A stretch of 64,000 nt of DNA from Bacteroidota bacterium (lineage in GTDB: Bacteria; Bacteroidota; Bacteroidia; Flavobacteriales; Flavobacteriaceae), in the NCBI GenBank assembly GCA_018829465.1, contig JAHJTN010000005.1, positions 310,001 through 374,000 of the forward strand. Direction: 5' to 3'. Positions within the stretch are counted from its first letter, which is position 1. Each line of letters opens with the position of its first letter. Positions 663 through 28,515 of the stretch are shown piece by piece. The notes beneath the pieces are model-generated. The model did not search any database. It worked only from the letters and a program-made list of their open reading frames with translations, and was not told where the DNA came from. The position numbers were made by a program, and so were the translations under genes.

Positions 663-683
663 ACATTATAAACAAAGGTTTTC

Positions 684-2040: not shown

Positions 2041-2052
2041 AGGGATAAAAAT

Positions 2053-2088: not shown

Positions 2089-2176
2089 TAAAAACCATTG
2101 TTATGGTAAGAACTTTGTAAACGAATTAATTTTTTACCGATTTTTTTGGTAACAACATTATTTTCTATTCTTATTA

Positions 2177-3094
2177 TCAATATTTAAGCTTTTCGTTTTT
2201 ATCAAAAATACCCCAAAAGGCACCCACATCGCCTTCTGCACCTACCTTCCAAGATTCATCAAAAGATGAAAAATAAAAACTCTCTACACCGGCTTTTTGG
2301 CACCAGAGTTGGGTGTCGATAAAATACTTTAAGAAATTTTCGTCTGATGGTTGCGCGGCATGTAGGTTTTTCCCTTGGCTCGGCCAACCGGTTTCTGTGA
2401 TGATGACTCTTTTCCCTCTGCCGGCAGCAAGTGCCTGCCCATACATTTGCTGCATGTGGTTTAGCGCATAATCGATTGGGCAACTCTCCCAAAAGGGATA
2501 GCAGTTGGCGAGGATCAGGTCGCATTTTTCGGCCAAGACAGGGTGTACAGAAAATTCATAGTAGGCATCTACATAGCCAACGGGGATGTGGCCAGGCAGG
2601 GCGGCTTTGACTTCGTCTATATGGGCGAGAAGTTCCTCAAGGGGGAGGTCGTTGCGGTACAATACTTCATTTCCTACTGCTGCAATGTCCACCAAACCTT
2701 TTTGCCCAAGTTCGATTAAAGCGTCTATTTCGCGTTTGTTTTTTTCTCTGTCATCGCCAATCCAGGCACCCACTAAGGTTTTTATGCCCAGTTGTTTGGC
2801 TACCATGGGGACAAATTCGTTGCCTTCAATACACGAAAATGAACGCACCCACTTTATATAAGGTTGAATGATTTTCATCCTGCGCAACACTTGTGCTTCG
2901 GTGATGTCATCGCCGGGTTTTTGGCCATCTTCATACATGCTGAAACAAAGCCCATGCATGCCTTTTTGCAGAATTTGATGAAAAAGTTTTACCAATTCAT
3001 TTTCAGATAGCGTTTTGGTAGCGTGATGCGGATCTAATGAAGCTAAAAAATTTTGATAGGCTTCAGTAACTTGAATTTCTTGTCTGAATGACAT
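2177..3094 (-). CDS. GH17-family beta-1,3-glucan hydrolase, cytoplasmic
   Basis: 305 residues with no signal peptide, so probably cytoplasmic. The two GH17 glutamates are in place: the acid/base in VGNEVLYR (E143) and the nucleophile in ITETGWPSQG (E234). The C-terminal FYFSSFDESWK segment is also typical. It is a clear paralogue of the C-terminal half of the transporter fusion encoded just upstream; the two share AAVGNEVL, NCYPFWE, ITETGWP and FYFSSFDESWK. It is the last gene of the minus-strand laminarin operon, 17 bp after the fusion gene. I infer that it cleaves or transglycosylates short beta-1,3-glucans after import. Exact substrate length is unknown. Confidence 0.88.
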   Translation of the reverse strand: MSFRQEIQVTEAYQNFLASLDPHHATKTLSENELVKLFHQILQKGMHGLCFSMYEDGQKPGDDITEAQVLRRMKIIQPYIKWVRSFSCIEGNEFVPMVAKQLGIKTLVGAWIGDDREKNKREIDALIELGQKGLVDIAAVGNEVLYRNDLPLEELLAHIDEVKAALPGHIPVGYVDAYYEFSVHPVLAEKCDLILANCYPFWESCPIDYALNHMQQMYGQALAAGRGKRVIITETGWPSQGKNLHAAQPSDENFLKYFIDTQLWCQKAGVESFYFSSFDESWKVGAEGDVGAFWGIFDKNEKLKY

Positions 3095-3111: not shown

Positions 3112-5481
3112 TTAATCGAATTTAAACTTTTCTTTGCTGTCCCAAAGCCCCCATGAGGTGCCTGACCAGCCTTCGGCATGAATCTTCCACGATTCGTCAA
3201 AAGAAGAAAAGTAGAACAAATCCACTTGGGCATGGGCGGCCCAGACTTGGGCATCGCAATAATACTTCATGGTGTTTTCTTTGTTGGGTAGGGCTTCGCC
3301 AACGGCCGGGCCTTGGGTTGGCCAACCTGTCTCGGTAATCATCACTTTTTTGTTGGGTGAGGCTTCGAGGGTTTTTCTATACATTTCTTGCAGATAAAGT
3401 CCGGCGTGGTCTATGTGTGCGCCTTCCCAAAAAGGATAACAATTAATCATTAACACATCGCAAGCAGCAATGAGTTTGGGTCGGTTGATAAATTCATAGT
3501 ACACATCTACACAACCTACCGGTATGCCGTTGGCACCTTCTTTTACTTGTTGGATATAGTCGATGATTTTTTCTTCGGTCAGTTCGCCTCTAAACAGCAC
3601 TTCATTGCCCACTGCTGCCATATCTACGAGTCCGTCTGCCATGAGTTTTTTTAGACTTTGTATTTCGCGTTGGTTTTGTTGGGCATCTTTGCTAATCCAT
3701 GCGCCCATGAGCACTTTGAAGCCCATGGCTTTGGCTATGGCGGGGATTTTATCGTGTTGGTTGGTGGATGAAAAAATTCGTATCCACTCAACGTGGGGTT
3801 GCAAAGCTTCTAAGCGTCTGCGGATTTGTGCTTCGGAGAGGTTATCACCCGGATTTTGACCTTCTAAATAAGGGCTAAAACATATTCCGTGCATGCCTTT
3901 TTTGAAGGTTTCTGTGAAATATGCATTGAGTTTACTGTCTTTAAGGCTTTCCCAATCTACGGGAGTATTGTAATAGTGGGGAAATTTTTGTACGAGTTCT
4001 AAGCGCGATGTTCCCTTCAGGTCTATGCCTTGCATAATATTGAAGGTGCTGTAGCCGGAAGGTTTAGGGTTTTTCCTCTTGGCCAATTCAGCTTGTATCT
4101 CGTGGGTTCTTTCTTCGGTCACGTCGTAATTTCTCATGATCCACATGGCAATCAGCGTACCCATAATTGGCACACCGGAGAAGAACAGCCGCAGTCCGGT
4201 CACGGCACCTTCGGGCTGTACTTCGGCATTGGGGTTTAGCCCCACGTAAGAAATAATCAAACCACTCAATCCGCCGGCAATGGCAAATCCGAATTTCACC
4301 ATCCACCAGTAAATAGCCCCAAAAAGCCCTTCCCTTCTTTTACCCGTGTTGAGTTCGTCTAAGTCGCACACATCGGCGGTCATCGACATCATCAGGGTAA
4401 ACAAGCTGCCTATCCCGAAGGAGAAAAAAGGCAGGGCAAAAATGAACATATACGGCTTGCCGGGTATAAACAGTAAATAGAGTAAAATATATCCTACAAC
4501 GGAAATGCCTTGTGACCAAATAAAGGCGTTTTTCTTGCCCATTTTTTTCGACATTCTAGCCACCATAGGAATCACCAAAAAAGTGGTAATCAAAGCACCT
4601 AAACTACCAAAAAGGGTCGGCCAAATACCTGCTTCAGCGGCATTTCCGGCAAACAAATGGTAAACTACAATAAAAAAGGAGAAGGCTGCAACGGTATTGA
4701 AAGCGTTAAAAATAAGGAAGGTGGAAATGCAAAGTTTACGGAAGGGTTTGGACTGAAAGGCTTCTTTAAAACCTTTGAAAATTTCCGTTAGGCTGCTTCC
4801 AATGGTTTTGAAGGTAATCGGGGTTAAAGAAGTGTCGTCTTTGGTCGATTTGCTTTTGATAAAGATAGCGGGCACCATAGCCAGCAAGGCACAAGAAACG
4901 CCCAACCAAGTGGCGAGTGTACGGGTGGCTGTGTCGGCATTTGGAAACCAATCGGGGTCGTACATAATGACCCAAAACCAAGGCGCTATGACCCAAGCCC
5001 ATTGACCTATCCACTGTGCTATGGCCATGATGTTGGTTCGCTCATGAAAATCGTCGCTCATTTCGTAGCCCATGGCCACATAGGGTACACTAAAAATGGT
5101 TAGCCCCAAATAAAATATAAAAGACCAAACCATGAAATAGGTAAAGTTATAGTCTAAACCACTCTCACGGTGCAATTGCCACATGGTCACAAAAGCAATG
5201 CCCATAACGATGGCACCTATAAAAACATATTGACGCCTGCGTCCCCAAACAGAGCGGGTATTGTCTGAGATAAACCCCATGATGGGGTCGGTGATGGAGT
5301 CAAATATCCGAGGAAAGAAATAAATGGCGCTCCACATCCAACCCGGAAAACCGAGATCTTGAACCAAAACAACCATGAATATACCCAGGGCAGCAGGAAA
5401 CATTTGATTGGCCAACATGCCAAGCCCGAAAGCGATTTTTTGGCCTAGGGGTACTTTGTTATGTGCGATAGTTTGTGACAT
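3112..5481 (-). CDS. GPH/MFS sugar transporter fused to a C-terminal GH17 domain
   Basis: 789 residues. Residues 1-450 form a complete glycoside-pentoside-hexuronide (MelB-like) transporter of about 12 membrane helices, with the DSITDPIMGFISD motif near residue 61 and the basic RRRQY loop. A charged linker spans 451-525, and 526-789 is a complete GH17 domain with VGNEVLF (E627) and ITETGW (E718). In GPH carriers both termini are cytoplasmic, so the glycosidase should face the cytosol at the exit of the transporter. The frame is uninterrupted, so the fusion is real in this sequence. It lies between the GH17 lipoprotein and soluble GH17 genes. Likely role: import of laminari-oligosaccharides and immediate processing. 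The transport substrate is inferred from context. Confidence 0.93.
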   Translation of the reverse strand: MSQTIAHNKVPLGQKIAFGLGMLANQMFPAALGIFMVVLVQDLGFPGWMWSAIYFFPRIFDSITDPIMGFISDNTRSVWGRRRQYVFIGAIVMGIAFVTMWQLHRESGLDYNFTYFMVWSFIFYLGLTIFSVPYVAMGYEMSDDFHERTNIMAIAQWIGQWAWVIAPWFWVIMYDPDWFPNADTATRTLATWLGVSCALLAMVPAIFIKSKSTKDDTSLTPITFKTIGSSLTEIFKGFKEAFQSKPFRKLCISTFLIFNAFNTVAAFSFFIVVYHLFAGNAAEAGIWPTLFGSLGALITTFLVIPMVARMSKKMGKKNAFIWSQGISVVGYILLYLLFIPGKPYMFIFALPFFSFGIGSLFTLMMSMTADVCDLDELNTGKRREGLFGAIYWWMVKFGFAIAGGLSGLIISYVGLNPNAEVQPEGAVTGLRLFFSGVPIMGTLIAMWIMRNYDVTEERTHEIQAELAKRKNPKPSGYSTFNIMQGIDLKGTSRLELVQKFPHYYNTPVDWESLKDSKLNAYFTETFKKGMHGICFSPYLEGQNPGDNLSEAQIRRRLEALQPHVEWIRIFSSTNQHDKIPAIAKAMGFKVLMGAWISKDAQQNQREIQSLKKLMADGLVDMAAVGNEVLFRGELTEEKIIDYIQQVKEGANGIPVGCVDVYYEFINRPKLIAACDVLMINCYPFWEGAHIDHAGLYLQEMYRKTLEASPNKKVMITETGWPTQGPAVGEALPNKENTMKYYCDAQVWAAHAQVDLFYFSSFDESWKIHAEGWSGTSWGLWDSKEKFKFD

Positions 5482-5591: not shown

Positions 5592-6878
5592 TTAATGTGA
5601 GCGTAAAATTTCATCTTTAACGGGAGGCAAAAGCACTTCCTGCAACAAGCTTTCCTCATCACCTTTGTATGTTTTGCTTATGGGCTTACCGGATCGGGAC
5701 AATCCCGTAAAAACACCTTTATCTACCCATTCCCAGATACTGAATTTGGCTTGGCCTTCTACTGTAAAAAGACCAAAATGATTTTCCGACCCCTGCGGAT
5801 TTTGTGCATCCTTCCAAGGCTCGTCGAAAGCTTCGAAGAAAAAGCAGGACACTTGGTTTTCGCGCGACCATTTTCTCATTTTTTGGTAATAAAGCGCTTG
5901 TTTGTATTCGTCAGTTGCTTTAGAACCTGAGTTTCCGTAAAGTTCATTGGAATAGGAAGCCCAACCTGTTTCACCTATATGAATGGGTTTTTCTACTCCC
6001 AACGATTTCATATAGTGCCTTACGCTGTCGAACTGCGACACGGCGTAGGCCAAAGACCTGTCCATGGCTTTGTGGATGATTTCGGTCTTGGACAAGCCGG
6101 TTTCATCGGGCAAAACACCCCAAAAAGCCGGGTTGTAATGGGTGTCGTGCATAGGATAGGTGTGAATTGAGAGGTAATCAACCGCTTTGATGAGTTTTTC
6201 TAAATCGGGCGTGTGGTATTCAGGACCACCTCCGCCCCAAGATGCAAAATTGTCGGAACTGGTAATCCACAAATCCTTAGCGAGCTTGCCCTCTTTTTTC
6301 AGGTTTTGCAGGTATTCCACCCATTTCAGTATCACATCGGCTTGCACATAGTAGGCTTCGGCCCATTTGACCATGGCTTCGTTGCCCACGGCTATAACTT
6401 TTACAATATCGGGATAGGTTTGAGCCAAGGCAACCGCTCTTTGTATTTCCGGTTCATTTCTTTCACTTTCTTGGTTGTGGTCAACCGTCAGACCCGTCCA
6501 AGCATTTTTACAGTCAATCCAGGCGCCCAACATTACATACATTTCAAAAGAAGCATCCTGAGTTTTAAGTTCACGAATCGCTTTAAGCACGTTGGAGGCA
6601 TGGGGCAGGTGCACGTTGTAGGTTCGTAAAATCCTGATTCCCATAGCATGCAGTATCAATAAATCTTCTTTAAGTTCGGCAATCGTAGGCTGTTGGTCTC
6701 TGCTGGTTAGTCTGTAACCGCCATAAGAGATGGCCAAATAATCTGGGTTGCCCAAAATTTCGCGGGCGGTGAGCTGGGGTTCTTCTTTTTTTATCACTTT
6801 TGGGTCTTGGGTTTGATTTCTGCACGACAATAAAACTACTGACGCAAATAGAACGGTTATGTAGGTTAAATTTTTCAT
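5592..6878 (-). CDS. GH17-family glycosidase, lipoprotein
   Basis: 428 residues. A lipoprotein signal ends in LLSC (Cys19), so it is anchored in the periplasm or on the surface. It is a divergent GH17: the acid/base is in VGNEAMVKW (E167), the nucleophile in IGETGWASY (E303), and FEAFDEPWK closes the barrel. A longer loop region between the two glutamates sets it apart from the two cytoplasmic GH17 proteins. The gene starts directly after the GH149 stop codon and is followed by a 110-bp gap before the transporter fusion. It probably cuts beta-1,3-glucan oligomers outside the inner membrane. Confidence 0.87.
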   Translation of the reverse strand: MKNLTYITVLFASVVLLSCRNQTQDPKVIKKEEPQLTAREILGNPDYLAISYGGYRLTSRDQQPTIAELKEDLLILHAMGIRILRTYNVHLPHASNVLKAIRELKTQDASFEMYVMLGAWIDCKNAWTGLTVDHNQESERNEPEIQRAVALAQTYPDIVKVIAVGNEAMVKWAEAYYVQADVILKWVEYLQNLKKEGKLAKDLWITSSDNFASWGGGGPEYHTPDLEKLIKAVDYLSIHTYPMHDTHYNPAFWGVLPDETGLSKTEIIHKAMDRSLAYAVSQFDSVRHYMKSLGVEKPIHIGETGWASYSNELYGNSGSKATDEYKQALYYQKMRKWSRENQVSCFFFEAFDEPWKDAQNPQGSENHFGLFTVEGQAKFSIWEWVDKGVFTGLSRSGKPISKTYKGDEESLLQEVLLPPVKDEILRSH

Positions 6879-9800
6879 TTACTTGAGAATAGTAGGTTTA
6901 ATAAAAACCTTGATGGATATTACTTCGGCAGTACGTCCGAATACAGCTCGACTCAGTTCGGGGGTGAGCGACTGACCGGGCAAACAGACCATACCCGACG
7001 AGGTATGCACCTCCAATTTGTTTTCTTCGGCCATACAATAGATTACAGGTACTTGGCAGAAGGTAAAGCAGATAGAGGGATGGTTAATGGGTATTTCCTT
7101 GGTTTCGCCCTGAACATCAACGAACCGGAAGGTTTTTAAATTTTCTGAAAACTCGTCTTTGCGCAGCAAATAGGGTTTAAAATGGAGAACGCCATTTTCC
7201 AAAACTACGCCCAGTTCCCCAAAACGGCTCAGAATATCTTCTTTTACTTGGCCGGTCATGCCGGGTTGTTGTGCGCCCTTGCCAAGGGGTGTATGCGAAT
7301 AAGGATCGGTTGGAAAAGCACCGTATAGTTCAGGCGATTTGTGTACACCTATCCCTTCGTTTATTTCATAATAGTGTTCCAGTAGTCTGCCAAGTATAGT
7401 GGGGTCGGCGTTTTCTAGTGCCGCTTTTTGGCAACATTCCTGTACTGCCAACAACAACTTCGAAACCATATGCCAATAGATTGACCCCAAGCCTTCATAA
7501 CCGTAAAAAGTTCCGGATCGGCCGGTGAAGGCTTTGTGGTTAAAAACCGATTCGTAAAGGTCGAGCACCTTGTTTGTTTCCGACTTAGCCAAGGGTGCGT
7601 AAACTGTATCTTCGAGGGCTACTAAAGCAGTTTTTAAAGCTTTAGCGTTCCTGAATTCAGGATGAAAATGATACTGCCCGTATGCGTCTTTTCGAATGAT
7701 GCCCTTGTGTTCGTCTTGCACCAATCGGGTGAGCAGTACGGATGATTTTACCGCGTTTTCGGCTAAGGTATTGCGGTCTAAAAATCCTTTCAGGTTTTTA
7801 TTGGGATAGAGGATATAACTGTATTGATCTTCCCTGAATAAAGCACTGTTTTTTAAACTATCAAGTACCTCCAGGGCTTCGTTCGAACTGAGAAAATGGG
7901 CACTGAGTACCGCCACTTGGCCTTCGAGCATTTCGTCTAAATACGAAATAGCTACGCCTTGATCAGCGTTTACAGTCATTAAATTGTAGGCATGGTACAT
8001 GCCGTCGGGTCGTTTGTTTGCCCTTATGGAATGTTCAGTGTAGCTTATGGCCAAGTCTACAAATGACTTTAGGGATTTGACAGAAATCTCAGTTTTTTTA
8101 CCCGAAAATTTATGGGTATAAATTTGTTCTCTGAACCCACTGGCTGAAGACCCTAAGGCCTCCAAGGCAGCCCTCCTTTTTTCCGGTGAAAAACGCCCGC
8201 TTAAGCCGTCTTGATGGGTTTCTAAAGCCTGAAGTATGCCCTCGAATTGACGGTGCATTTCGTCAGACACCGGATAGGTTTCATTTTCGTTGAGTTGTGA
8301 AAAAATACGCTCAAAAAAACTTAAAAATCTTCGGATGTAATAGAGCGTTACCATTGATACACCGTTACCCACCAAGGCGTTGTTGGCATCGTTCCATTCG
8401 GGTCTTTGGGTGTTCATCCAAATACCGCCTTCGGGTATGAAATTGGAGAATTTGGCCAAGGTAACCGCAAGGATTTTTTCCAGAAAGTTTACATGGATGA
8501 TTTGCCCCTCTTTGTTAGTGAGCAAAGTACCATCAGCTCCTAAAGTCTCGCGATTTTCTCGTATTTTTTTATCTTCTTCCCTGTCGAAGATAATAGTGTC
8601 TTTGGGGTCTGAAAGTATTTCCTCAAAGGTTTTTATTTTATAAGGCACATGAGCGTAAACAAAGGCATCTACGGCGAATAATGTTGGTAGTTTTTTGGGG
8701 CTTAAATGGTCTAAGTGTTCTAACAATTTAAGCAGGTAGATAATTTGGTGATCGCCCCAATAACCGATATAAGACCAGGGGTCATCGGGTTCTATTATTT
8801 CCCAATCAAAACCGTCTTTGGTCACCCTGTAGGGATTGTATCCATCAAAAGTTGAAGCATTCAGGAACTTGCTGATCATGCTTTCAACAAAATCGGGATA
8901 TGAATACGCCAAGCTTTCCCAGTTTTGGAAAATGTCTCGCCAATTGCCTTCGTAGTCTAAAATTTTTGAACCGTCTTCAGCCTTAGTATTGATGGAAAAC
9001 CGGTTCCACGGCCTACTAGGATCTCCGTGACGTCGGCTGAATTTGAGCGGCAGATATTCCAATGACAATCTGCTAAAATCTTTATCTTTAAGTTCAAGCT
9101 CAAGTGCCCTAAGCTGATCTAGAGAGAAAACCACGCCCAGTTGCGCTATGGATTTGGCATAACGCCGGTAGATGTTTTTGTTGGCATTTTGTAAATACGT
9201 TTCAAAATCTTTTTGTTCAACGCTGTAATTATTATCAAATATGCCACCACGCATGATGTTGTACATACAGTTTGAATAATGCCTGATGTCTCTCAGTTTA
9301 TCAGCTGAACACTGAACACCATCGGCGGCGGCGATTAGTTTCAACAGTTGATCTGTGCCCTTGGCAATGTCTTTTTCTAAGTTTGCAGACAGTTCTTTGT
9401 GGTTTGTGATTTTGTGGATGAGTGCCGTGACGTCCGTTTGATCATAGTTGACGTCGGCAATTATTTTCCAAGACACTGTTTCATCGGGTTGAAGTGAACG
9501 TGCCTGATGTACCAAATAAGCGCCTTTTTCAGCTTTGATATCCGTTTCCTGTACTAGGGTTTGGCCTTTTCTGAAATTTTCGAGCTGCAGAGAAGAGAGG
9601 AGATATAATGGATTTTTTACACCCAAAGACCAGCATACATTAGCCGTCAAAGCTTCGCTAGGTTCGGCCTTATCTAAAGGCACCGCACTGAGCGCATACA
9701 TACCAAGTCCCGATTTTAGATGCAGTTCGCTGCGTTTGTATGCATCTACCAAATTGCTGCTTTGGGTTTGCAAATCGCTAACCACGCCTGCGGGGAGAAT

Positions 9801-10307
9801 GTTTTGCAGTCCGTCTATACATTCCAGTTCTATTTTCGATTCGGAAATATTGGTCAAGCTAACTGATTTTATAAAGCCGAAAGTGTCGCACGAACTCCAC
9901 CCATAGCGAAAACGGAGGCCGAGGCTGTGGTTGATTTCTTCGAAAACAATTTTATTTCCGTAAATATTTTTATAAAGATTTCGAGTCAGCTTATAATGGT
10001 CAGCAAACCTTACCGAATAAGGCTCCCAAAACACGATTTCTGTATTTTGTTTTGTTTTAATAATCGTCTTGCTTCCTGTAATTTCTACACTTTCGGTAAT
10101 TTTATCATCTGTAGTGTACGGAAACAAAGCGTAATTGGCATTTTTCCTGCCGGCTGTTAAACCGCCATTGCTGGAGATAAACATCCAGTGGTTGTATGCG
10201 CTTGCTATGTTCATAAAAAAAGGGCGCATCAAATCTGCTTCAGATATTTTCAGGAATTCCTCTCCGTCTATTTTATTTAGAGCTATTTTATTATTACTTG
10301 TCGACAT
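6879..10307 (-). CDS. GH149-type beta-1,3-glucan phosphorylase
   Basis: 1142 residues with no signal peptide, so cytoplasmic. Length, the N-terminal beta-rich region (GGLTAGRKNANYALFPY) and the EWNDANNAL segment with Asp at about residue 640 match the pattern of the GH94/GH149/GH161 phosphorylase clan. There the Asp of the WND motif is the proposed general acid. GH149 members are beta-1,3-oligoglucan phosphorylases of about 1100 residues, which fits both size and context. The reaction would release glucose-1-phosphate from laminari-oligosaccharides with inorganic phosphate, saving one ATP per glucose. It lies between the GH-A/GH16 fusion and the GH17 lipoprotein. The family choice (GH149 against GH161) is from length and memory of the families, not from a search. 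Confidence 0.8.
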   Translation of the reverse strand: MSTSNNKIALNKIDGEEFLKISEADLMRPFFMNIASAYNHWMFISSNGGLTAGRKNANYALFPYTTDDKITESVEITGSKTIIKTKQNTEIVFWEPYSVRFADHYKLTRNLYKNIYGNKIVFEEINHSLGLRFRYGWSSCDTFGFIKSVSLTNISESKIELECIDGLQNILPAGVVSDLQTQSSNLVDAYKRSELHLKSGLGMYALSAVPLDKAEPSEALTANVCWSLGVKNPLYLLSSLQLENFRKGQTLVQETDIKAEKGAYLVHQARSLQPDETVSWKIIADVNYDQTDVTALIHKITNHKELSANLEKDIAKGTDQLLKLIAAADGVQCSADKLRDIRHYSNCMYNIMRGGIFDNNYSVEQKDFETYLQNANKNIYRRYAKSIAQLGVVFSLDQLRALELELKDKDFSRLSLEYLPLKFSRRHGDPSRPWNRFSINTKAEDGSKILDYEGNWRDIFQNWESLAYSYPDFVESMISKFLNASTFDGYNPYRVTKDGFDWEIIEPDDPWSYIGYWGDHQIIYLLKLLEHLDHLSPKKLPTLFAVDAFVYAHVPYKIKTFEEILSDPKDTIIFDREEDKKIRENRETLGADGTLLTNKEGQIIHVNFLEKILAVTLAKFSNFIPEGGIWMNTQRPEWNDANNALVGNGVSMVTLYYIRRFLSFFERIFSQLNENETYPVSDEMHRQFEGILQALETHQDGLSGRFSPEKRRAALEALGSSASGFREQIYTHKFSGKKTEISVKSLKSFVDLAISYTEHSIRANKRPDGMYHAYNLMTVNADQGVAISYLDEMLEGQVAVLSAHFLSSNEALEVLDSLKNSALFREDQYSYILYPNKNLKGFLDRNTLAENAVKSSVLLTRLVQDEHKGIIRKDAYGQYHFHPEFRNAKALKTALVALEDTVYAPLAKSETNKVLDLYESVFNHKAFTGRSGTFYGYEGLGSIYWHMVSKLLLAVQECCQKAALENADPTILGRLLEHYYEINEGIGVHKSPELYGAFPTDPYSHTPLGKGAQQPGMTGQVKEDILSRFGELGVVLENGVLHFKPYLLRKDEFSENLKTFRFVDVQGETKEIPINHPSICFTFCQVPVIYCMAEENKLEVHTSSGMVCLPGQSLTPELSRAVFGRTAEVISIKVFIKPTILK

Positions 10308-10377: not shown

Positions 10378-12435
10378 TCAGTCGTAAACTCTTACATAAT
10401 CTACCTCTAGGGTTTGGGGAAAAGGGGTTTCTGTATTGGGGCTTCCTACAAAATGACCTCCAACAGCAAGATTTATCAACATAAAGAATGGCTTGTCAAA
10501 AACCCAATTGCCCGGCAAATCGGCAGGGGTAATTTTGTGGTAAATTTGACCGTCTATGTAAAAATGAATATAATCTGCTCTCCAATCTACTGCAAACACA
10601 TGAAAATCTTCATCAAATCCGCCTTGTTGGGTTTCAAAACTTTTTGAAACGCCTTTGTTTCCGGAATACCCCGGTCCGTGCAAAGTGCTGAGTACAATGT
10701 TGGGGTTTTGACCTCTGTATTCCATTATATCGATTTCTCCGGTCTTTGGCCAACCTATTTGATCAATATCAGAACCTAGCATCCAAAACGCCGGCCACAT
10801 GCCTTGTCCTTTGGGCAATTTCATCCGCGCCTCAAACCAACCGAATTTTTTTTCAAATTTTCCTTTGGTTTTTATCCGTGCAGAGGTAAAATAAGCGCCT
10901 TCAAAAACCTCTTTTGTCGCTGTAATGATGAGCCGACCATCGGCTACTTTTACGTTTGCAGGCCTGTTGGTGTAATATTGCAATTCGGCGTTTCCCCAGC
11001 CGTTATTTCCCCTTCCTAAGTCGAAGACCCATCGGGTTGTGTCTATTTGAATGCCTTCAAACTCGTCTTGCCAGAACGGTTTTTTTGAAGCGGATGGAGC
11101 GTGACCACTATGGTCTGTGGTTTCTAATGGTTTATTGCCGAAACGCTGTTGGTCCTGCTCGTTTGCTAAATTGACAAATGTGTAGACAGACAATCCTTCA
11201 AAAAAATTGACAAGATCTTTCTGAGTGATTGTATCTGAATACGGGTTGATTTGGTGTATTTCTTTTAGCGCATAATAGGCCGCACGCGGATAAAGATCGT
11301 ACAGACCATTCTCATCCTTAGGGCCTTTGGCACAAATCCCAAACCATTCTTCATTCATGTTATTGCGCCCTTTTTCAAAATCAAAAGCGTAACCTCCGTT
11401 GGCCCATGAGGCGTTAGTATCGTGCGTGTCTAGTCCGTAGGTTTGGCCGTATTTCCACCAGCCGTCACTAAACTGAAAAGTAAAGCCACCCAAGGTGTTT
11501 TCTGCTTTGCCCATGCCTGCCGCGTTGAGATAGATTTCTTTCCAGTTTTCAATTAAGTATTCGGCTTGTGCCAACTGGTTTTCTTCATGCTTCACGGCAT
11601 CAAAAGCATCGGAGCCAAATTCTGTGAACAGGATGGGTTTGCCATATATTTTTTGGACTCTTTCAAAGGCGTCACCAAAAGAAAGACCTCGGTACATATT
11701 GGTTCCGAATATATCTACATCCGGACAGGTTTCGGCTATAATTTCTAAAAATAAAAGATCGCCATTGCAAATAGCCACAGGTACCGATGTGTCTATAGCT
11801 TTGATGATTTTAGCAGCATCGTTCATCAATTTGTACATGGGTCTGGCTCTTTTTTCCCCCACTTCTTTTAAACGGGCATCTTCAGTAGGAAAATCTTCGG
11901 TTTCTGCGCCTTGCCAAAACAGGCCATAGTTGTTTTCATTGCCTATCAGATACATGAGAAGCCCCGGGGTGTTTTTGTAGTAGCGAACCATATCTTCCAC
12001 TTCCTTGAGCAACAGGTCTTGTGTAGCTATTTCGTCATAATGTGTTTCGGCTTTCCAAACGCCGTTAAGCGTGAGACCATATCTGCCAAAAGAATGATTT
12101 ACCATGGTATAAATACCATAATTTTCAAATATGTAGCGAATCCATTTTGGAGGAATTCCTGTATAAATTCGAACGGCATTGACTCCAATTTCTCTGAGCT
12201 TTCCCATTTCATTTTCCAGGGCGGTTTTAATCATTTCCTCTGGCTGATCCCAAAAGTTGTACTCGTAGTTGGTGCCTCTGGGATAGTAGTCCCAATTCAT
12301 CCCGTTGATGATAAAGTCTTTCCCGTCCACTTGAAGCTTAAAACCATCCTCGTTTACCAAGGCAACACTTTGGGCATAAACCAAACCATTCAAGCAGGTG
12401 AAAAAAGCAAAGAGATATAAAAGGTATTTGTTCAT
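10378..12435 (-). CDS. Two-catalytic-domain glucanase: clan GH-A barrel plus GH16
   Basis: 685 residues with a signal peptide ending at about VYA-Q (residue 21). Residues 25-400 form a clan GH-A (beta/alpha)8-type domain that keeps both expected glutamates: YLIGNENNYG (E167) and ILFTEFGSD (E272). Its start (NGMNWDYYPRGTNYEY) resembles GH2 barrels and also GH72/GH158-type beta-1,3-glucan enzymes; I cannot fix the family. Residues 450-685 are a full GH16 laminarinase domain with GEIDIMEY (E567, D569, E572). No T9SS sorting domain or lipobox is visible, so a periplasmic location is likely. The two domains probably attack the same glucan in different ways, for example endo-cutting plus exo-cutting or transglycosylation. 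Confidence 0.9.
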   Translation of the reverse strand: MNKYLLYLFAFFTCLNGLVYAQSVALVNEDGFKLQVDGKDFIINGMNWDYYPRGTNYEYNFWDQPEEMIKTALENEMGKLREIGVNAVRIYTGIPPKWIRYIFENYGIYTMVNHSFGRYGLTLNGVWKAETHYDEIATQDLLLKEVEDMVRYYKNTPGLLMYLIGNENNYGLFWQGAETEDFPTEDARLKEVGEKRARPMYKLMNDAAKIIKAIDTSVPVAICNGDLLFLEIIAETCPDVDIFGTNMYRGLSFGDAFERVQKIYGKPILFTEFGSDAFDAVKHEENQLAQAEYLIENWKEIYLNAAGMGKAENTLGGFTFQFSDGWWKYGQTYGLDTHDTNASWANGGYAFDFEKGRNNMNEEWFGICAKGPKDENGLYDLYPRAAYYALKEIHQINPYSDTITQKDLVNFFEGLSVYTFVNLANEQDQQRFGNKPLETTDHSGHAPSASKKPFWQDEFEGIQIDTTRWVFDLGRGNNGWGNAELQYYTNRPANVKVADGRLIITATKEVFEGAYFTSARIKTKGKFEKKFGWFEARMKLPKGQGMWPAFWMLGSDIDQIGWPKTGEIDIMEYRGQNPNIVLSTLHGPGYSGNKGVSKSFETQQGGFDEDFHVFAVDWRADYIHFYIDGQIYHKITPADLPGNWVFDKPFFMLINLAVGGHFVGSPNTETPFPQTLEVDYVRVYD

Positions 12436-12484: not shown

Positions 12485-14773
12485 CTATTCTTCATAAAAA
12501 AATACTGATTCTAAATTGTTTACGGAATTTCCTCCTACAAAAACTTTAAATTCGCCTGACTCAACTTTCCAATTTCCTTCGTTGTCAAAGAATCCTATGC
12601 TTTCTTCATTTAGGATGAATGTCACCTTACGGGTTTCGCCCGGTTGGAGATCTATTTGTTCGAAACCTTTTAACTCTTTGACCGGTCTGGACACGGAAGC
12701 ATACAAATCGTGCAAATAGAGCTGAACGGTCTCTTTGCCGAGCAAGTAACCTGTGTTGGTCACTTCTACGCTAACTTCGATAGATCCGTCTTTACTGAAA
12801 CCGTTTTTACTTAGTTGCAGGTTTTTGTATTCAAACGACGTGTAGCTAAGGCCATAACCAAATGGAAACAAGGGTGAATTTGTTGCATCGATATAGTGCG
12901 ACCAAAATATTTGTTTGTTATCCGGCAAAACGGGTCGGCCGGTATTTTTATGATTGTAGTATATAGGAATCTGACCCACATTTCGGGGAAAAGTCATGGT
13001 GAGTTTGCCACTGGGGTTGTAATCCCCGTATAAGACTTGTGCGATGGCATTGCCACTTTGGGTGCCCAATTGCCAAGCTTCTACAATAGCCGGGATTTTT
13101 TCTGCGGCCCATTCTATGGCGAGAGGCCTGCCGTTCATCAGTACCAAAACGATATTTGGGTTTATCTTATAAATTTCTTCCAAAAATTCTTGCTGTAAAC
13201 CGGGTAAGCCAATTTCTGTTCGACTTCTTGCTTCGCCACTTTGAAATGCATGCTCACCCAATACAATAATGACAACTTCGGCTTGCTTGGCGATGTTTTT
13301 TGCCGCTTCAAAACCGCTGCGGTCTGTGGTGTTTATTTGAACTTCCTGAAGAAACGAGGGCGAGCCATCTGTAAGTCTGACACCTTGTTCGAAAAGTAAA
13401 TCATTGTCGGGATATTTTTCTAAACCTTCTTGTACAGACACGGCAGAATTGGGTGCTGCCAAGGCACGCCAGCTGCCCAACGGGCTGTCTTTATCGGCAG
13501 CCAATTGTCCCAAAAGGGCAATTTTTAAACCTTTTTTATTGAGTGGCAAGAGCTGTTTTTCGTTTTTCAACAAAACGATCGACTTCTTGGCCATGTCTAA
13601 AACTGCTTCGTGAAAGGCGGGTTTGCCTATTACTTCTTTTTCTCTGAGTTCATCGCAATAAAGGTAGGGATTGTCAAACAAGCCCAGTTCGTATTTTAAG
13701 GTCAAAATTCTCTTCACGGCGTCGTCAATTAGCGCTTCATCCACCTTGCCTTCTTTAACTAAAGTGGCTAGGTGTTCTACGTATAAGCTCGATTCCATGT
13801 CCATATCCGAGCCTGCCTTTACGGCCAGTTCGGCAGCTTGTTCGCCGTCTTTCGCATATCCGTGAGGAATCATTTCTTTGATGGAGCCCCAGTCGGAAAC
13901 AACTAATCCGTTAAAATTCCACTTTCCTTTCAAAATATCTCTTTGCAGAAAAGTATTACCGGTTGCGGGTACGCCATTGAGTACGTTAAAAGCATTCATA
14001 AAGGTTTTTACCCCGGCGTCTGTAGCAGCTTTAAATGGCGGAAAAACTTGGTTGTAGAGTGTAGAAGTACCTACATCTACTGTATTGTAATCTCTACCGG
14101 CTTCTGCAAAACCGTAGCCTGCAAAGTGCTTCGCAGTAGCGGCGATGGTATGTGGTGCTTTCAAATCGGTTCCCTGAAAGCCCGCTACACGTGCTTTGGC
14201 AATCAAACTTCCCAAATAGGGATCTTCTCCTGCGCCTTCCATAACACGACCCCAACGGGCATCGCGAGAAATATCGACCATAGGGGCAAATGTCCAATTA
14301 ATTCCGGCGGCGGCGGCTTCGGCGGCAGCCACCTCAGCCGATTTTTTTATGGCTTCCAAATCCCAACTGGCTGATTCCGCCAAGGGAATGGGAGCCATGG
14401 TTTTATAGCCGTGAATCACGTCATAACCGATGATGAGCGGTATGCCCAAGCGCGTTTCTTCTACGGCTATTTTTTGAAGTGCTTTTACGTTTTCAACGCC
14501 CGTAACATTGAGCATAGAACCGATAAGTCCTTTGCGAAGTTGTTCGTATCTAATGGCGGCACTTCCTTCTTCGGGAGCCGGCCCGGTTACTTCCCAAAAG
14601 CCGGAATACTGATTCATCTGTCCAACTTTTTCTTCCAAAGTCATGATAGAAAGCAGGGAATCTACTTGCTTGGCATAAGGACTTTGGTTAGAACCGGAGG
14701 AAGCACTGTTGTTTTGACAAGAATGTAAAATGTTCATCAGGACAATAATTAAAATTAAGCTTAAACTTTTCAT
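12485..14773 (-). CDS. GH3-family beta-glucosidase, lipoprotein
   Basis: 762 residues, full length for the BglX-type GH3. The signal peptide ends in LHSC (Cys19), so it is a lipoprotein. The catalytic nucleophile Asp is in GLVVSDWGS (D294), followed by the alpha/beta sandwich domain and a C-terminal fibronectin type III domain (KGFEQIDLQPGET region). In the laminarin context it probably removes beta-1,6-linked side glucose and splits short oligosaccharides in the periplasm. It is the first gene after a terminator-like hairpin at 14845-14873, and a TAACTTTA box about 30 bp upstream of its start could be its own promoter. Confidence 0.93.
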   Translation of the reverse strand: MKSLSLILIIVLMNILHSCQNNSASSGSNQSPYAKQVDSLLSIMTLEEKVGQMNQYSGFWEVTGPAPEEGSAAIRYEQLRKGLIGSMLNVTGVENVKALQKIAVEETRLGIPLIIGYDVIHGYKTMAPIPLAESASWDLEAIKKSAEVAAAEAAAAGINWTFAPMVDISRDARWGRVMEGAGEDPYLGSLIAKARVAGFQGTDLKAPHTIAATAKHFAGYGFAEAGRDYNTVDVGTSTLYNQVFPPFKAATDAGVKTFMNAFNVLNGVPATGNTFLQRDILKGKWNFNGLVVSDWGSIKEMIPHGYAKDGEQAAELAVKAGSDMDMESSLYVEHLATLVKEGKVDEALIDDAVKRILTLKYELGLFDNPYLYCDELREKEVIGKPAFHEAVLDMAKKSIVLLKNEKQLLPLNKKGLKIALLGQLAADKDSPLGSWRALAAPNSAVSVQEGLEKYPDNDLLFEQGVRLTDGSPSFLQEVQINTTDRSGFEAAKNIAKQAEVVIIVLGEHAFQSGEARSRTEIGLPGLQQEFLEEIYKINPNIVLVLMNGRPLAIEWAAEKIPAIVEAWQLGTQSGNAIAQVLYGDYNPSGKLTMTFPRNVGQIPIYYNHKNTGRPVLPDNKQIFWSHYIDATNSPLFPFGYGLSYTSFEYKNLQLSKNGFSKDGSIEVSVEVTNTGYLLGKETVQLYLHDLYASVSRPVKELKGFEQIDLQPGETRKVTFILNEESIGFFDNEGNWKVESGEFKVFVGGNSVNNLESVFFYEE

Positions 14774-14899: not shown

Positions 14900-16540
14900 T
14901 TATTGAAAAACACGAATATAATCTATCTCATAGGTAGATTGTGTGAAAGCGCCATCGATGGCACCACCAAAATTACCTCCCATAGCAACATTTAGCAGCA
15001 TAAAAAAGTCTTTGTTAAATGGTACAGTCAGGTTATTTGGGAAGGTGTGATAATTCACATCATCGACAAAAAATTTGATTTCATTAGGAGTCCATTCCAC
15101 TTCATAAATATGAAACGAGTCTGAAACACCGGGAACAATTGTGGAATTGCTGACGCCATTTCCTCCGGAATTACCCGGAAAATGTAGAGTACTAAAAATA
15201 GTATTTTGTTGGTTGCCAACATGCTCCATGATGTCTATTTCTCCTGCACCCGGCCAAGGATTGGTGTCTATGTCTGCACCCAACATCCAAAACGCAGGCC
15301 ATGTACCGCCACCGCTAGGTAATTTGGCTCTCATTTCTACACGGCCGTACATAAATTCGACCTTGTCTTTTGTTTTGATTCTGGCAGAAGTAAATTGTTT
15401 GCCATCGAGGTTTTCTCTAATTGCGGTAATTTTCAACATGCCGTTTTCAACTACAATATTTTCGGGTCTGTCTGTATAGGTCTGCTGTTCGTTGTTCCCC
15501 CAACCGCAGTTTTGAGGACAACCATCTCCCAAATCAAAAGACCAATTGCTAGGGTTTACCCCGCCGTCCACATCAAATTCGTCTGCCCAAATAAGGGTAT
15601 CAAAATTGGAAGCGGGTGGTTCTGTGCTACCTCCACCTTCGGGAACGAAGGTGAAGTACCAAGCCAATTGTCCGCCACCAAATTCGCTACGTACATTTTG
15701 AACACCTCTAACACTTAATTTGTTTTCGGTCAATTCTAATATTTTGAATTCTGTGATACCGGCATCATAGGAAAGCACGCTGTTGTCTATGATAAGCGAG
15801 CGGTCGGAAGTTGCCTCATCGGTAATGATAGAGAAAACTGTTTCTGTACGGATGAAACCGTCTATATTTCTACATTCGTCAACAAATTGTTGTACGGGTG
15901 CATCGGGGAAAAATTTGGTAACTTCTGTCCAGTTCATAAAAGTTTCGCCTTGTGTTTCAATCTTGTAAGTAAGATTTTGGTTGGCATCAAAACTGAATTC
16001 CAAAACATCGTCATACAAGCAAGGGTTGAGCGCATTGGGCGTAGCCGAGAAAAAGCCCGGAAAATCTGTATTGACATCTCCAACGCCAAAGTGTCCGGCC
16101 ACGGTTTGGTCCCAAACCCATCTTTTGCTGCCGTCTCCGGCCAGTTGTTGGAGCACCACCGGATCGATGGTTACCTTCACATCGAGTTCGACCTCTACCA
16201 CTCCGGATGTAGATGCACCTCCCGTACCGAAAGCAAGTACTACAATTTGTGCCGTAAATTGACCTGCACGCGTAAACCTAAAAGTAGCTTCTTCTCCTGG
16301 TAAAACCAGGACTGGCGTACTTTGTTGTGTGAAGATTACTTGAAAACTGGTTGCGTCATTTGCGGTTGGACGCACCGTGACCAAACCGGACTGGTCCGGA
16401 GCTACAATGGCTTCAATTTGAAGGTTTGTCGGTGTTTTGACAGCACCAAAACTTCCTTCGTCGTCTGGTGCGCAATTCTGCAGCAAAACGAACGCGAAAA
16501 TCACGGACAGTAAAATTTTTATTTTTTTCATTTTTGACAT
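14900..16540 (-). CDS. GH16 laminarinase lipoprotein with N-terminal PKD-like domain
   Basis: 546 residues. A lipoprotein signal ends in LLQNC (Cys23), so it is likely to be surface or outer-membrane anchored. Residues 30-120 form a PKD/Ig-like domain, 125-300 a domain of a type common in flavobacterial PUL lipoproteins, and 310-546 a GH16 catalytic domain with GEIDIMEH (E434, D436, E439) and the aromatic WPAFWML strand. It should act as an endo-beta-1,3-glucanase on laminarin, generating oligosaccharides for SusC/SusD. Either the annotated ATG or the one three codons later could start translation. It follows the large binding protein gene by 43 bp in the same operon. Confidence 0.93.
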   Translation of the reverse strand: MSKMKKIKILLSVIFAFVLLQNCAPDDEGSFGAVKTPTNLQIEAIVAPDQSGLVTVRPTANDATSFQVIFTQQSTPVLVLPGEEATFRFTRAGQFTAQIVVLAFGTGGASTSGVVEVELDVKVTIDPVVLQQLAGDGSKRWVWDQTVAGHFGVGDVNTDFPGFFSATPNALNPCLYDDVLEFSFDANQNLTYKIETQGETFMNWTEVTKFFPDAPVQQFVDECRNIDGFIRTETVFSIITDEATSDRSLIIDNSVLSYDAGITEFKILELTENKLSVRGVQNVRSEFGGGQLAWYFTFVPEGGGSTEPPASNFDTLIWADEFDVDGGVNPSNWSFDLGDGCPQNCGWGNNEQQTYTDRPENIVVENGMLKITAIRENLDGKQFTSARIKTKDKVEFMYGRVEMRAKLPSGGGTWPAFWMLGADIDTNPWPGAGEIDIMEHVGNQQNTIFSTLHFPGNSGGNGVSNSTIVPGVSDSFHIYEVEWTPNEIKFFVDDVNYHTFPNNLTVPFNKDFFMLLNVAMGGNFGGAIDGAFTQSTYEIDYIRVFQ

Positions 16541-16583: not shown

Positions 16584-19500
16584 TTACTGACCACTAAACC
16601 TGATGTTGTCTATATAAATTACATTATCGGAAGTTCTTCCGTTCAAATTAAAGTCGGGGAATATAATAATTTGATCTATCACCCCTGTGATGCCTTTGCC
16701 AATAAGGCTGGAAACATCAAAGGTGATTTCTTCCCATTCGTTTATTTTGGTGTTGGCTACTTTAATTTCGGGTTGGGCTTCGCCGTTGTTTTCGGCAAAT
16801 TTGAGGCCGATGTCGCTGATGACTGATTTCCAAACCATGATTCTGACAATTTTATTGGTCTGATCGAAGGTAAAGGAACCTATATCCGACCCGTGTTGCG
16901 ATTCAAAACCCATCCAAGGCATACCAGCCTGCAAAGCCGTTGCTTTCAAAACTGTTCCGGAAGTATTGATGCCTGATGGATTCGGATTGGCTACAATTTC
17001 AACCGGTGGGTTGCTACCATTTTCAAAAACGGTCCAAGTCCAGTCTGCTCCAAATCCGCCTGTTTCAAAATTAATCGGATTTAAAGGTGGTGTTCCAGTT
17101 CCTCCTCCACCTCCGGTGCCACCACCGCCTCCGGTTGTACCACCTGGGGTTGTAGATACGCTGATGTCGTCAAAATGATAGACACTTCCATCGCCGTTTG
17201 TTCCAAAATCAAAGAAAATGACAAATCTGACGTAATTGCCTGCCGGTGCAGCACTGAAATTGAAGGAAATTTCTTCCCAAGCGTTGGCAGTGGTATTGGT
17301 TACGTCCACTTCGTGCGTCACACTGGCATCTTGGTTCTCAATTTTTGCCTTGATGGTGATGCCACTTTTGGGGCTCAGCACCTTCACTTTGATATAAGGC
17401 CTAGTAGCCACATCTATAACTTTGTTTTCGATAAAAGAACCTGCCCATATTTCTGCCCCTTGCGCTTTGACGAGCTCTGCAACCAAACTACTGGTATTGA
17501 TACCCGATGGGTTGGGATTGTTCACAACGGCTGAGGTGGGTATGTTTCCAAAAGAAGTGAACACTGGCGCCACGCCTTGAAAGTCTTCAATTAAACTTGG
17601 TGCGCTGCCTGTTCCACCACCTGTTCCACCACCTCCGGTGCCTCCACCAGATTGTGGGTTAAAAGTGATGTTGTCTATATAGATTACGTTATCGGAAGTT
17701 CTGCTGAAATTAAAGTCGGGGAATATAATAATTTGATCTATCACTCCTGTGATACCTTTGCCTATAAGGCTGGAAACATCAAAGGTGATTTCTTCCCATT
17801 CGTTTATTTTGGTGTTGGCTACTAAGATTTCGGGTTGCGCCTCTCCACTGGCTTCCGCAAATTTGAGACCTATGTCGCTGATGACCGATTTCCAAACCAT
17901 GATCTTGACTATAGAATTGGATTGGTCGAATGTAAACGAACCCAAATCTGTTCCGTGTTGCGATTCAAAGCCCATCCAAGGCATACCTGCCTGCAAGGCC
18001 GTTGCTTTCAAAACTGTTCCTGAAGTATTGATGCCTGATGGATCCGGATTGGCTACAATTTCAACCGGTGGGTTGTTACCATTTTCGAAAACGGTCCAAG
18101 TCCAATTGGCTCCAAATCCATTTTGTTCAAAATCAATAGGATTGAAAGGAGCTGTGCCTGTGCCGCCTCCCGTATTGCCACCGCCCTGTCCGGGTGTGGT
18201 GAGTCTGATATCATCAAAGAAGAAGGAGTCACCTGTTCCTGCATTTCCAAAGTCGGGGAATAAAATAACCCTGTCATAAGGAATTGCTGTACTGAAAGCA
18301 GAGGCTGAGGTAAGGTCAAAAGTGAGCTCCTCCCAAGCATTGCCAACAGTAGTAGATGCCTGAATCTCAACAAAAACAGTTGGATTTCCGTTGTTATCCA
18401 GAGGTGATCCGGAATCTTCTATTTTAAACAAGATAGGCGTACCGGCTCTGGGCGACCACACTTTTACACTGGCTGTAGTGCCAGCCGAAAAATCTATGGC
18501 ACCACTCAAGTTGAGACTGGCACCTGCCCATACTTGCGCACCGGCAGCTTTATTGATTTCCAATACTCTGCTGCTGGTATTGATACCGGATGCTGCAGGA
18601 TTGTTGATAATGGAAGCCGGGATGGGGCCAAAATCGGCTGCGCCAAATCCTATCCATTCAAAAGTGGTCTGCGTGTCTTCAAAGCTCAAAGGCAGCATGA
18701 TGTTGCCTCCACCGCCGCCTTGGCCGGGAGTGATCATGCGTACATCGTCGAAAAAGAAAGCATCGCCGGTTCCGGCATTTCCAAAGTCGGGGAATAAAAT
18801 AACCCTGTCATAAGTAATTGCCGTGCTGAAAGAAGTGACTGAGGTAAGATCAAAAGTGAGTTCTTCCCATGCATTAGCCACTGAAGTTGACGCTTGTACT
18901 TCAACAAAAACCGTTGGATTCCCATTGTTGTCTAAAGGTGATCCTGAATCTTCTATCTTAAACAATACAGGTGTGCCGGCTCTGGGCGACCAGACTTTTA
19001 CACTGGCTGTTGTACCAGCCGAAAAATCTATAGCTCCGCTCAAATTGAGACTGGCACCGGCCCATACTTGTGCACCGGCGGCTTTGGTGATTTGTAAGAC
19101 GCGTTCGCTGGTATTGATACCGGATTTGTCGGGGTTGTTGATGACTGCTGCCGGAATGGGACCGAAGTCAACCGCACCAAAACCAATCCATTCGAAAGTG
19201 GTTTGTGTATCTTCAAATGTAAGCGGTAAATTGATAGGCGCGCCTGGGCCTCCATCGCCCGCTGTGATGTCGTCAAAGAAATAGGTGCCGGGTTTTGTAT
19301 CCGGACCGTCAACAAACAAGGTGATGGTATTGAAGGATCCTGAAGCATTTATAGGGCCGCTCAACGGAAAGCTCAGTTGCGCTTGAGAGAAGTCAAAAGT
19401 AACTGTATTCCAGCCGGCTGTTGTAACATTTTCAATAACCTCTACTGCATCAGCTGTACCATTTTCAAATTTTAATAAAATGGCATTGTTGGGTGTAGAA

Positions 19501-20818: not shown

Positions 20819-22285
20819 TTAGTAGCCCGGATTTTGTGGCCAGCGGTTTCCTGCCAGTTCAATTTCGATAGAAGGAATTGGGAAAACTTCGTGTTTTCCG
20901 GGTACAAAGCCCTGAATTTTGGATGCGGCTTGTCCGGTTCTGACTAAATCAAAGAAACGGAAGCCTTCGCCCATAAGTTCCAAACGTCTTTCGTCCCAAA
21001 TGGCCGATATTAAATTTTGGCCGGTTGCAGTGACATCGTCTAATCCGGCACGGGTTCTGACCCTGTTTAAGTATTGTCTGGCCCTGTCCTCACTTCCGCC
21101 CGAGCGGGCAAGGGACTCCGCAGCCATCAATAAAACATCTGCAAAGCGTATGGCTCGGTAGTTATTGGGGTTGGTCAGGTTGGCGTCTCCGGTATTGAGA
21201 TCGCCTTGTCTGGCTATATATTTTCTGTTGTAAAAACCTGTGTGTTCAAAGCCTTCTACAAAAGTTGCACCTGTTAAATCAGCCCAGGCATCAATGTCTA
21301 AGATGGCGACGTCACGGCGAATATCTGCCGGGTCGTAAGCATCAAAAGCTTCTTGGGTGGGTACGTTGAAACTAAAACCGGAATCGAAAAGAGGTCCGGC
21401 ATAATTTCTGATGCCGTTAAAGCCTACAGCAACATTTCCTTCACTACACTGAAAGCAACCAAATCCGGCACCTTCTAAGTCTGAATATTGAATTTCAAAA
21501 ACCGACTCTATGTTGTTCTCGCCTTCAAATTCGAAAATGCTGTTGTAATCTGTCACCAAGTCATAAGGACCGTTATTGATTAGTGCTTCTAATACTTGAG
21601 CGGCTTCTCCAAATTTGTCTTGATACAGCAAAGCTCTACCCAACAAACCTTGCGCAGCGCCTTTGGTAATACGTCCTTTTTGGGCTTGTACGTAAGGTAA
21701 ATTATCTGCTGCAAAACGCAAATCTGATTCGATAACGGCATAAATTTCGGCTTTGGGCGTACGGTCTAGAGAAGTTTCTTCACCCAATTGGAATCTGCGG
21801 TCCGACACGTAAGGTATGTCGCCAAAAAACTTGACCAATTCAAAAAGATAGTATGCTCTTAAAAAACGGTTTTGTGCCAATATTTCGTTTTTGCCTTCAA
21901 AATCTACTTTGTCTTGAAATTCAATCATAAAATTGGTGCGATTGAGACCTGCGTACATCCAAGTCCAGATGTCTCTGAGGTTTTGGTTGACGGGTGTGTG
22001 AATCATGTCGTCAATTTCTTGGAAGCTTGGTACATCTGTTGCGCTTTCACCACCTGCAAGGGTGTTATCTGAAGCCATATCGCCAATCATTACGTTCCAA
22101 TGGGTAGCTTGAAGCAAGTCGTAAGAACCTATTAAGGCATCTTCAAAATCATCCTTAGAGTTGAAGAAACTCTCAGAATCGATAACAAAATCAGGGTCTT
22201 CCTGTACAAAATCATCCGAACAGGCCAAGAGTAGGCCGAACGTCATCATCGTAAGTGTATATTTTAAAATGGATATTGTTTTCAT
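20819..22285 (-). CDS. SusD/RagB-family glycan-binding lipoprotein
   Basis: About 488 residues. It has the lipoprotein signal MKTISILKYTL...LLLACSDD and a typical SusD fold sequence: N-terminal TPR region, LNRVRTRAGL and DERRLELMGEGFRFFDLVRTG near the C-terminus. SusD caps the SusC channel at the cell surface and delivers oligosaccharides to it. The frame also contains an ATG at 22295-22297 that overlaps the SusC stop codon. I chose the ATG at 22283-22285 because it gives a normal lipoprotein signal, but either could be used. It is encoded directly after SusC and 17 bp ahead of the surface glycan-binding protein gene. Confidence 0.96.
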   Translation of the reverse strand: MKTISILKYTLTMMTFGLLLACSDDFVQEDPDFVIDSESFFNSKDDFEDALIGSYDLLQATHWNVMIGDMASDNTLAGGESATDVPSFQEIDDMIHTPVNQNLRDIWTWMYAGLNRTNFMIEFQDKVDFEGKNEILAQNRFLRAYYLFELVKFFGDIPYVSDRRFQLGEETSLDRTPKAEIYAVIESDLRFAADNLPYVQAQKGRITKGAAQGLLGRALLYQDKFGEAAQVLEALINNGPYDLVTDYNSIFEFEGENNIESVFEIQYSDLEGAGFGCFQCSEGNVAVGFNGIRNYAGPLFDSGFSFNVPTQEAFDAYDPADIRRDVAILDIDAWADLTGATFVEGFEHTGFYNRKYIARQGDLNTGDANLTNPNNYRAIRFADVLLMAAESLARSGGSEDRARQYLNRVRTRAGLDDVTATGQNLISAIWDERRLELMGEGFRFFDLVRTGQAASKIQGFVPGKHEVFPIPSIEIELAGNRWPQNPGY

Positions 22286-22296
22286 CGTAAAAAGCA

Positions 22297-28449: not shown

Positions 28450-28515
28450 CAATACGACCTGATTTAATGGAACTATTTTCTTGTAAATATAGCAAAAAAT
28501 GAGGCTTGGCACCTT

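Follow-up and report, generated by a model that had tools for sequence, protein, structure and literature searches.

Why should a sugar carrier and a glycoside hydrolase be made as one polypeptide? The question is raised by a protein encoded in the window, that is, the whole stretch of 64,000 nucleotides analysed here, in which an MFS carrier runs on into a GH17 domain. We favour, with a probability of about 0.6, the reading that this protein is a MelB/GPH-like laminari-oligosaccharide symporter whose tethered, cytosolic GH17 would attack sugars at the exit of the carrier and so pull their import.

Coupled transport and hydrolysis was proposed by Unfried et al. (2018) for the MFS-GH17 protein FbGH17B, whose gene, part of a laminarin PUL, they cloned and whose activity they assayed (PMC6246565). 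The available text of their report describes the conversion of oligosaccharides into glucose by FbGH17B and calls the fusion common in marine Flavobacteriia. In the accessible descriptions FbGH17B (FORMB_24740, AOR29491.1, Formosa sp. Hel1_33_131) has, like the window protein, an N-terminal 12-TM MFS and a C-terminal GH17, and is encoded in a laminarin PUL close to a second GH17. The window protein, with its 12-TM MFS followed in frame by GH17, is an FbGH17B-type MFS-GH17 protein, a kind already described in 2018, and a preliminary description of the locus was mistaken in knowing of no characterised example.

Further reports, as far as their available text goes, bear on this type. One or more such fusions were present in the majority of the expressed variant 1 laminarin PULs of a set of MAGs, and the fusion-bearing MAGs include Gammaproteobacteria, with SAR92, Luminiphilus and SAR86 named (PMC10108472, 2023). 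Two GH17 genes with GH30 and MFS genes between them are described for Muricauda PULs (PMC13188888, 2026), and two or more GH17 for variant B PULs, without a distinction of tethered and free forms (PMC6298971, PMC6794258).

The fusion protein and its gene cluster

The ORF table and the translation gave a single 789-amino-acid frame without an internal stop codon (Table 1), in agreement with the preliminary description. Pfam MFS_2 (PF13347) matched residues 18-456 (E 4.9e-69; 233.4 bits against a gathering cut-off of 27). The Pfam GH17 family (PF00332) matched residues 708-788 only, at 35.9 bits against a cut-off of 28.2; this short coverage was offset by two further results, a match over most of the barrel to the profile of the transferase 4wtp/4wtr (profile positions 537-762) and a whole barrel in the AlphaFold2 model. 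With PF00332 above its cut-off and two catalytic glutamates, the C-terminal half belongs to GH17.

The AlphaFold2 model, built on a 45-row alignment (mean pLDDT 85.6, pTM 0.61), contained 12 TM helices, a further helix, then a stretch modelled with low confidence and, starting near residue 515, the GH17 barrel. The pTM leaves the relative placement of the domains uncertain, and we do not claim that GH17 sits over the channel mouth. Between residues 470 and 515 the linker measured 35-46 residues over the 45 aligned rows (46 in the window), and part of it may be flexible, given the low model confidence there. In Foldseek searches the top match of the carrier half was MFSD2A in its inward-open form, and MelB was also matched; these MFS_2/GPH-type proteins share the fold and the 12 helices, although MelB carries no enzyme domain. 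The GH17 half matched RmBgt17A, the Rhizomucor miehei beta-1,3-glucanosyltransferase (4wtp/4wtr; TMt 0.87-0.88), which has the same barrel but is fungal, is not fused and, in the text available, has Tyr102 where the window protein has Phe. The carrier and the GH17 domain are each complete and the helices number 12, as had been supposed; of the catalytic glutamates named earlier E627 stood, whereas the nucleophile is E717 rather than E718, one residue off, since the TETGWP motif starts at 716.

Table 1. Features of the fusion protein and of the surrounding cluster, in window positions.
Feature	Position	Strand	Basis
Free GH17, 305 aa, no signal sequence by eye; E143/E234 catalytic; Y146 at Tyr136 position	2177..3094	-	Pfam; free lineage in trees
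MFS-GH17 fusion, 789 aa	3112..5481	-	Open frame; Pfam MFS_2 and GH17
GH17 barrel, residues 515-789; E627 and E717 catalytic; F630 at MlGH17B Tyr136 position	3115..3939	-	
Linker, residues 471-514	3940..4071	-	pLDDT <50 at 472-480
Carrier half, residues 1-470: 12 TM helices (12-449) and helix 456-470	4072..5481	-	AF2 model; MelB 4m64 aligned over 3-445; positive-inside
GH17 with lipobox-like N-terminus (VVLLSC, by eye), putative periplasmic lipoprotein	5592..6878	-	Pfam
GH149 beta-1,3-glucan phosphorylase	6879..10307	-	NCBIfam NF058639, 1710 bits, cut-off 1150
GH2-type TIM barrel and GH16	10378..12435	-	Domain search
GH3	12485..14773	-	Pfam and NCBIfam
GH16, long N-terminal part	14900..16540	-	Domain search
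1405-aa protein with PKD domain	16584..20801	-	Domain search
SusD-like	20819..22297	-	Domain search
SusC-like TonB-dependent receptor	22297..25320	-	Domain search
Regulator: propeller repeat, Y_Y_Y, LuxR-type match just below Pfam cut-off	25618..28512	-	Domain search

Judged by its gene content, the cluster is a laminarin PUL. Read from upstream, its genes follow one another on the same strand as propeller-type regulator, SusC, SusD, PKD protein, GH16, GH3, GH2-type/GH16, GH149, GH17 lipoprotein, fusion and, 17 bases from the fusion ORF, free GH17, after which comes a gene for S-adenosylhomocysteine hydrolase. The fusion thus has the context of the FbGH17B type, a laminarin PUL with two further GH17, GH149, GH16, GH3 and SusCD. 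By locus tags, Formosa differs in that FbGH17A and the fusion are separated by GH30, as far as the sources seen extend; no GH30 was found among the 16 window proteins scanned. From its position in the PUL, the lipoprotein GH17 would be the counterpart of MlGH17A and FbGH17A. At E 0.001 the window's own genome gave three GH17 matches, all inside the PUL. A further GH16 lies at 29594-30418, just past the regulator and a gene of the endonuclease/phosphatase family. The GC content of the PUL (0.437) is slightly above that of window positions 33744-64000 (0.410). The fusion had no match at E 1e-60 in two genomes of the same genus (G395, G396), so the locus looks accessory there; horizontal gain of the PUL is possible from this absence and the GC content.

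In the favoured reading, laminarin fragments would reach the periplasm via SusCD and be cut by the lipoprotein GH17, and an inner-membrane MelB/GPH-like symporter would move the oligosaccharides inward. GH17, linked to the cytosolic C-terminus through some 35-46 residues, would attack the leaving oligosaccharides and keep their free concentration at the exit low, so that transport would be drawn inward by metabolic pull or channelling. The pool would then be shared between the GH149 phosphorylase and the free GH17, which is probably a glucanosyltransglycosylase. One difficulty lies in chain length: the text available for the Muricauda lutaonensis enzymes states that MlGH17B, the free relative studied best, acts poorly below DP5 and that periplasmic MlGH17A yields DP2-4 (PMC13188888), so the chains brought in may lie below the length that such a GH17 needs.

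Occurrence of the fusion and two lineages of GH17

Contigs were scanned with an alignment of nine fused proteins and with two carrier peptides as patterns, which gave at least 554 confirmed relatives. These are relatives of the carrier and not necessarily fused; the best 80 were chosen by their match to the whole fusion and therefore lean toward fused forms. Counting only stop-free ORFs, we found the fusion in one frame in 78 of these best 80 of at least 554 loci, in many assemblies. A complete free GH17 was present in 69 of the 78 fusion loci of the same best 80 of at least 554, a partial one at a contig end in 2 and none in 7, some of which are loci cut short. In even samples, a match of any kind, fused or not, was detected in 39 of 395 genomes class-wide (E 1e-20) and in 46 of 395 phylum-wide (E 1e-60), the window's own being counted in both.

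By title, the best 80 of at least 554 loci comprised 59 from Bacteroidota and 21 from betaproteobacteria, mostly named Burkholderiales groups, and one betaproteobacterial fusion locus was titled as groundwater. Matches of at least 300 bits to GH149 were found in 52 of these 59 Bacteroidota loci versus 6 of these 21 betaproteobacterial loci, and to the lipoprotein GH17 in 54 of 59 versus 0 of 21. The scarcity of GH149 and the lack of a lipoprotein-GH17 match indicate that the pathway around the fusion differs in betaproteobacteria. There the order from upstream is often free GH17, a third GH17 and then the fusion. This third, very divergent GH17 (about 310 aa) occurs near the free GH17 in 27 of the best 80 of at least 554 loci, for example L034:13280-14224, which scored 30 bits with PF00332, and is absent next to the window's fusion. 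Frames of 1025-1045 aa in three genomes (G439, G429, G445) had the appearance of a triple fusion, which we rejected: the parts are separate ORFs in all three, and the translated G439 DNA has stops between them.

The preliminary description was right that a separate soluble GH17 is the adjacent gene; it is not just, as also suggested there, an untethered form of the same enzyme, for the two lie on opposite sides of the GH17 trees and differ in a transglycosylation residue. In a first tree of 205 domains, all 93 fused domains lay on one side of a branch (SH-aLRT 98) and 112 separate domains on the other. In a larger unrooted tree, 101 of 102 fused domains lay on one side (SH-aLRT 95) and 125 of 125 separate domains on the other. 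These were quick, unrooted trees without bootstraps, sampled from hits assigned a locus, with a leaning toward fused loci; further hits of the even samples and of the genome search that covered G395, G396 and G439 were left out. The GH17 trees omit repeat-genome loci (L116, L117, L119-L121, L123, L124, L147), partial domains (including L165), the third GH17 and the more distant domain L028; among the repeat-genome loci omitted from the carrier tree are also L114, L115 and L118. L006 and L085, with identical carrier rows, apparently represent the same genome. A recent duplication of the fused domain in the window genome was rejected as the source of the free GH17, the two being far apart in the trees.

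The one exception, L166 (G541, 481-2943, minus strand), joins a carrier to a GH17 of the free lineage (VGNEVLYR), and its long linker retains an MSFRE stretch resembling the start of the free protein. By this sequence evidence, it is a second, independent carrier-GH17 fusion. Across the carrier tree, with its 93 fused and 28 separate rows, the fused/separate label changes at least 11 times, 7 of them forced by well-supported branches. We read these changes as repeated loss of the domain because none of the 125 separate domains sampled lay on the fused side. Domain gain may still apply to three fused rows of a distant carrier clade. These rows, L018, L019 and L149 (822-860 aa), are fusions with longer carrier halves on a clade that is mostly unfused. 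Rooting the GH17 tree with the third GH17 grouped all free domains with the remaining fused ones and left the window's fused sub-clade (12 rows) and L019 outside this group; with that root the fused domains do not form a single clade, and fusion would predate separation. The outgroup branches were very long (about 5 changes per column), and we therefore relied on the unrooted split. Comparison of the genomes suggests that the tethered GH17 is an old lineage of its own, usually accompanied by an untethered relative.

One competitor of the favoured reading, which we consider somewhat unlikely, is that the fusion mainly sets the expression ratio and the membrane placement of two activities, with transport and catalysis kinetically uncoupled. 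It would agree with a linker that is partly of low model confidence and may be flexible, with the cytosolic activity already supplied by the free GH17 of the cluster, and with the 28 of 121 related carriers in the tree that are unfused. A point against the favoured reading itself is that tethering is dispensable in some genomes: carriers 74% identical to the window's (L013/L114 in G202; L014/L115 in G010) keep GH149 nearby, and neither a fused nor a free GH17 of this kind was found beside them. Against uncoupling, the fused lineage is absent among the 125 separate domains sampled, and the second fusion arose independently.

Active-site residues and predicted chemistry

The catalytic positions E627 and E717 are Glu in all 227 domains, and W685 and E686 are likewise invariant in the 227; an activity of the fused half on laminari-oligosaccharides is putative from this conservation. 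For reference we used MlGH17B, a beta-1,3-glucanosyltransglycosylase that splits off laminaribiose at the reducing end and makes new beta-1,6 linkages, with Tyr136, Trp191 and Glu192 as key residues in the text available (PMC11005184). In the available descriptions it differs from the window fusion in being a stand-alone protein of 295 aa whose PUL has a separate MFS gene. Its Phe76, Trp101, Glu133, Tyr136, Trp191, Glu192, Glu223, Phe264, Trp271 and Trp283 correspond to F570, W595, E627, F630, W685, E686, E717, F758, W765 and W777 of the fusion at a constant offset of 494, a match that rests on the numbering of the paper, in which the nucleophile is printed both as 223 and as 233 (PMC11005184). 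All residues listed there are the same in the fused GH17 except Tyr136. The triad is thus incomplete in the fused copy (F630, W685, E686) and complete in the window's free GH17 (Y146, W202, E203). At this site FbGH17B has Met (PMC11005184), as opposed to Phe in the window fusion.

Position 630 was L in 62, M in 13, Y in 9, F in 7, H in 7 and Q in 3 of the 101 fused-lineage domains, and Y in 104 and L in 22 of the 126 free-lineage domains; of 24 aligned copies of the third GH17, 23 had Val there and 1 had Ala. The best separator of the lineages was position 776, adjoining W777 (fused, n=101: R 43, Q 26, S 21, A 4, 7 others; free, n=126: Y 108, F 12, H 4, C 2). We compared both forms in 80 paired loci, 11 from the class-wide even sample and 69 from the best 80 of at least 554. 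In 52 a non-Tyr fused copy accompanied a Tyr free copy, in 22 neither had Tyr, in 6 both did, and the reverse was found in 0; the 22 were 16 betaproteobacterial loci and 6 from Bacteroidota or genomes of the window's class. A strict rule of Tyr in the free and no Tyr in the fused copy was therefore rejected in favour of a tendency, and the window's Phe is a mild change.

The pattern at the Tyr136 position suggests a tethered hydrolase and a free transglycosylase. From its residues the window's free GH17 would probably transglycosylate; the activity of its fused copy is less certain, because Phe keeps the ring. A wider reading, which we hold tentatively and at somewhat less than even odds, is that laminarin eaters have long divided the work between two cytosolic GH17 lineages. 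One, tethered only and mostly without Tyr, would pull import as a hydrolase, function solely within a carrier and be lost with the link; the other, free and mostly with Tyr, would be a transglycosylase, with which fusion was re-invented at least once.

The tethered GH17 may instead be a transglycosylase, lengthening or branching incoming oligosaccharides so that they could not leave and would suit GH149, for trapping or storage. The aromatic ring of F630, the invariance of W685 and E686, the other transglycosylation residues, in 227 domains, the Tyr in 9 of the 101 domains of the fused lineage, some of them closely related to the window's, and the transglycosylase activity of the free homologue MlGH17B (PMC11005184) are consistent with it. 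We nevertheless regard it as unlikely: this position is occupied by Leu, Met, His or Gln in 85 of the 101 domains of the fused lineage (Tyr in 104 of 126 free-lineage domains), glucose release is reported for FbGH17B, which has Met, and the exchange Tyr102Ala abolishes transfer in RmBgt17A, as related in the accessible part of PMC11005184.

Side of the membrane and meaning of the tether

With helix limits taken from the model, the loops on the side of the N- and C-termini had a mean of 27.0 K+R versus 2.4 on the other side, and the bias had the same direction in 45 of 45 aligned rows. MelB, the termini of which are cytosolic, aligned end to end with the carrier half. By the charge rule and homology to MelB, the GH17 half is most likely cytosolic, as the preliminary description had held. 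D55 and D59 of MelB, which belong to its cation site, align with D61 and D65 of the carrier, invariant in the 45 rows, and cation-coupled sugar transport is putative from their conservation. MelB D19 and D124, residues with roles of their own in that protein, align with Q26 and S131, so the sugar specificity is probably other than that of MelB. The whole NCBIfam gph model (TIGR00792) matched, although at 190.6 bits its cut-off of 231.35 was missed; we therefore call the carrier MelB/GPH-like and do not file it as a member.

A periplasmic GH17 that trims oligosaccharides ahead of uptake is very improbable. Hydrolysis before uptake would fit the glucose release by FbGH17B, and Unfried et al. call two laminarin enzymes likely periplasmic (PMC6246565), the side of the fused domain not being clearly stated in the available text. 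The 12 helices, the strong positive-inside pattern, the cytosolic termini of MelB and the lack of a signal sequence by eye argue against it, as does MlGH17B, described in the accessible text as lacking a signal peptide (PMC13188888). That a missed stop or an assembly artefact joined two genes is refuted by the 78 of the best 80 of at least 554 loci, whose many assemblies exclude sequencing error.

The tethered/free split, the regular free partner beside the fusion and the betaproteobacterial members found no mention in the open-licence literature searched, within the text of it that was available. What is added here is the pattern of tethered and free GH17 lineages, little studied so far, around an already known type of fusion. 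The 21 betaproteobacterial loci among the best 80 of at least 554 make this type more than a trait of marine flavobacteria. Laminarin accounts for a large share of marine carbon flow, and if carrier and tethered enzyme act as one unit, catalysis at the exit would here clearly be what drives the uptake of sugar. The tethered/free pair offers a natural test of what tethering is for.
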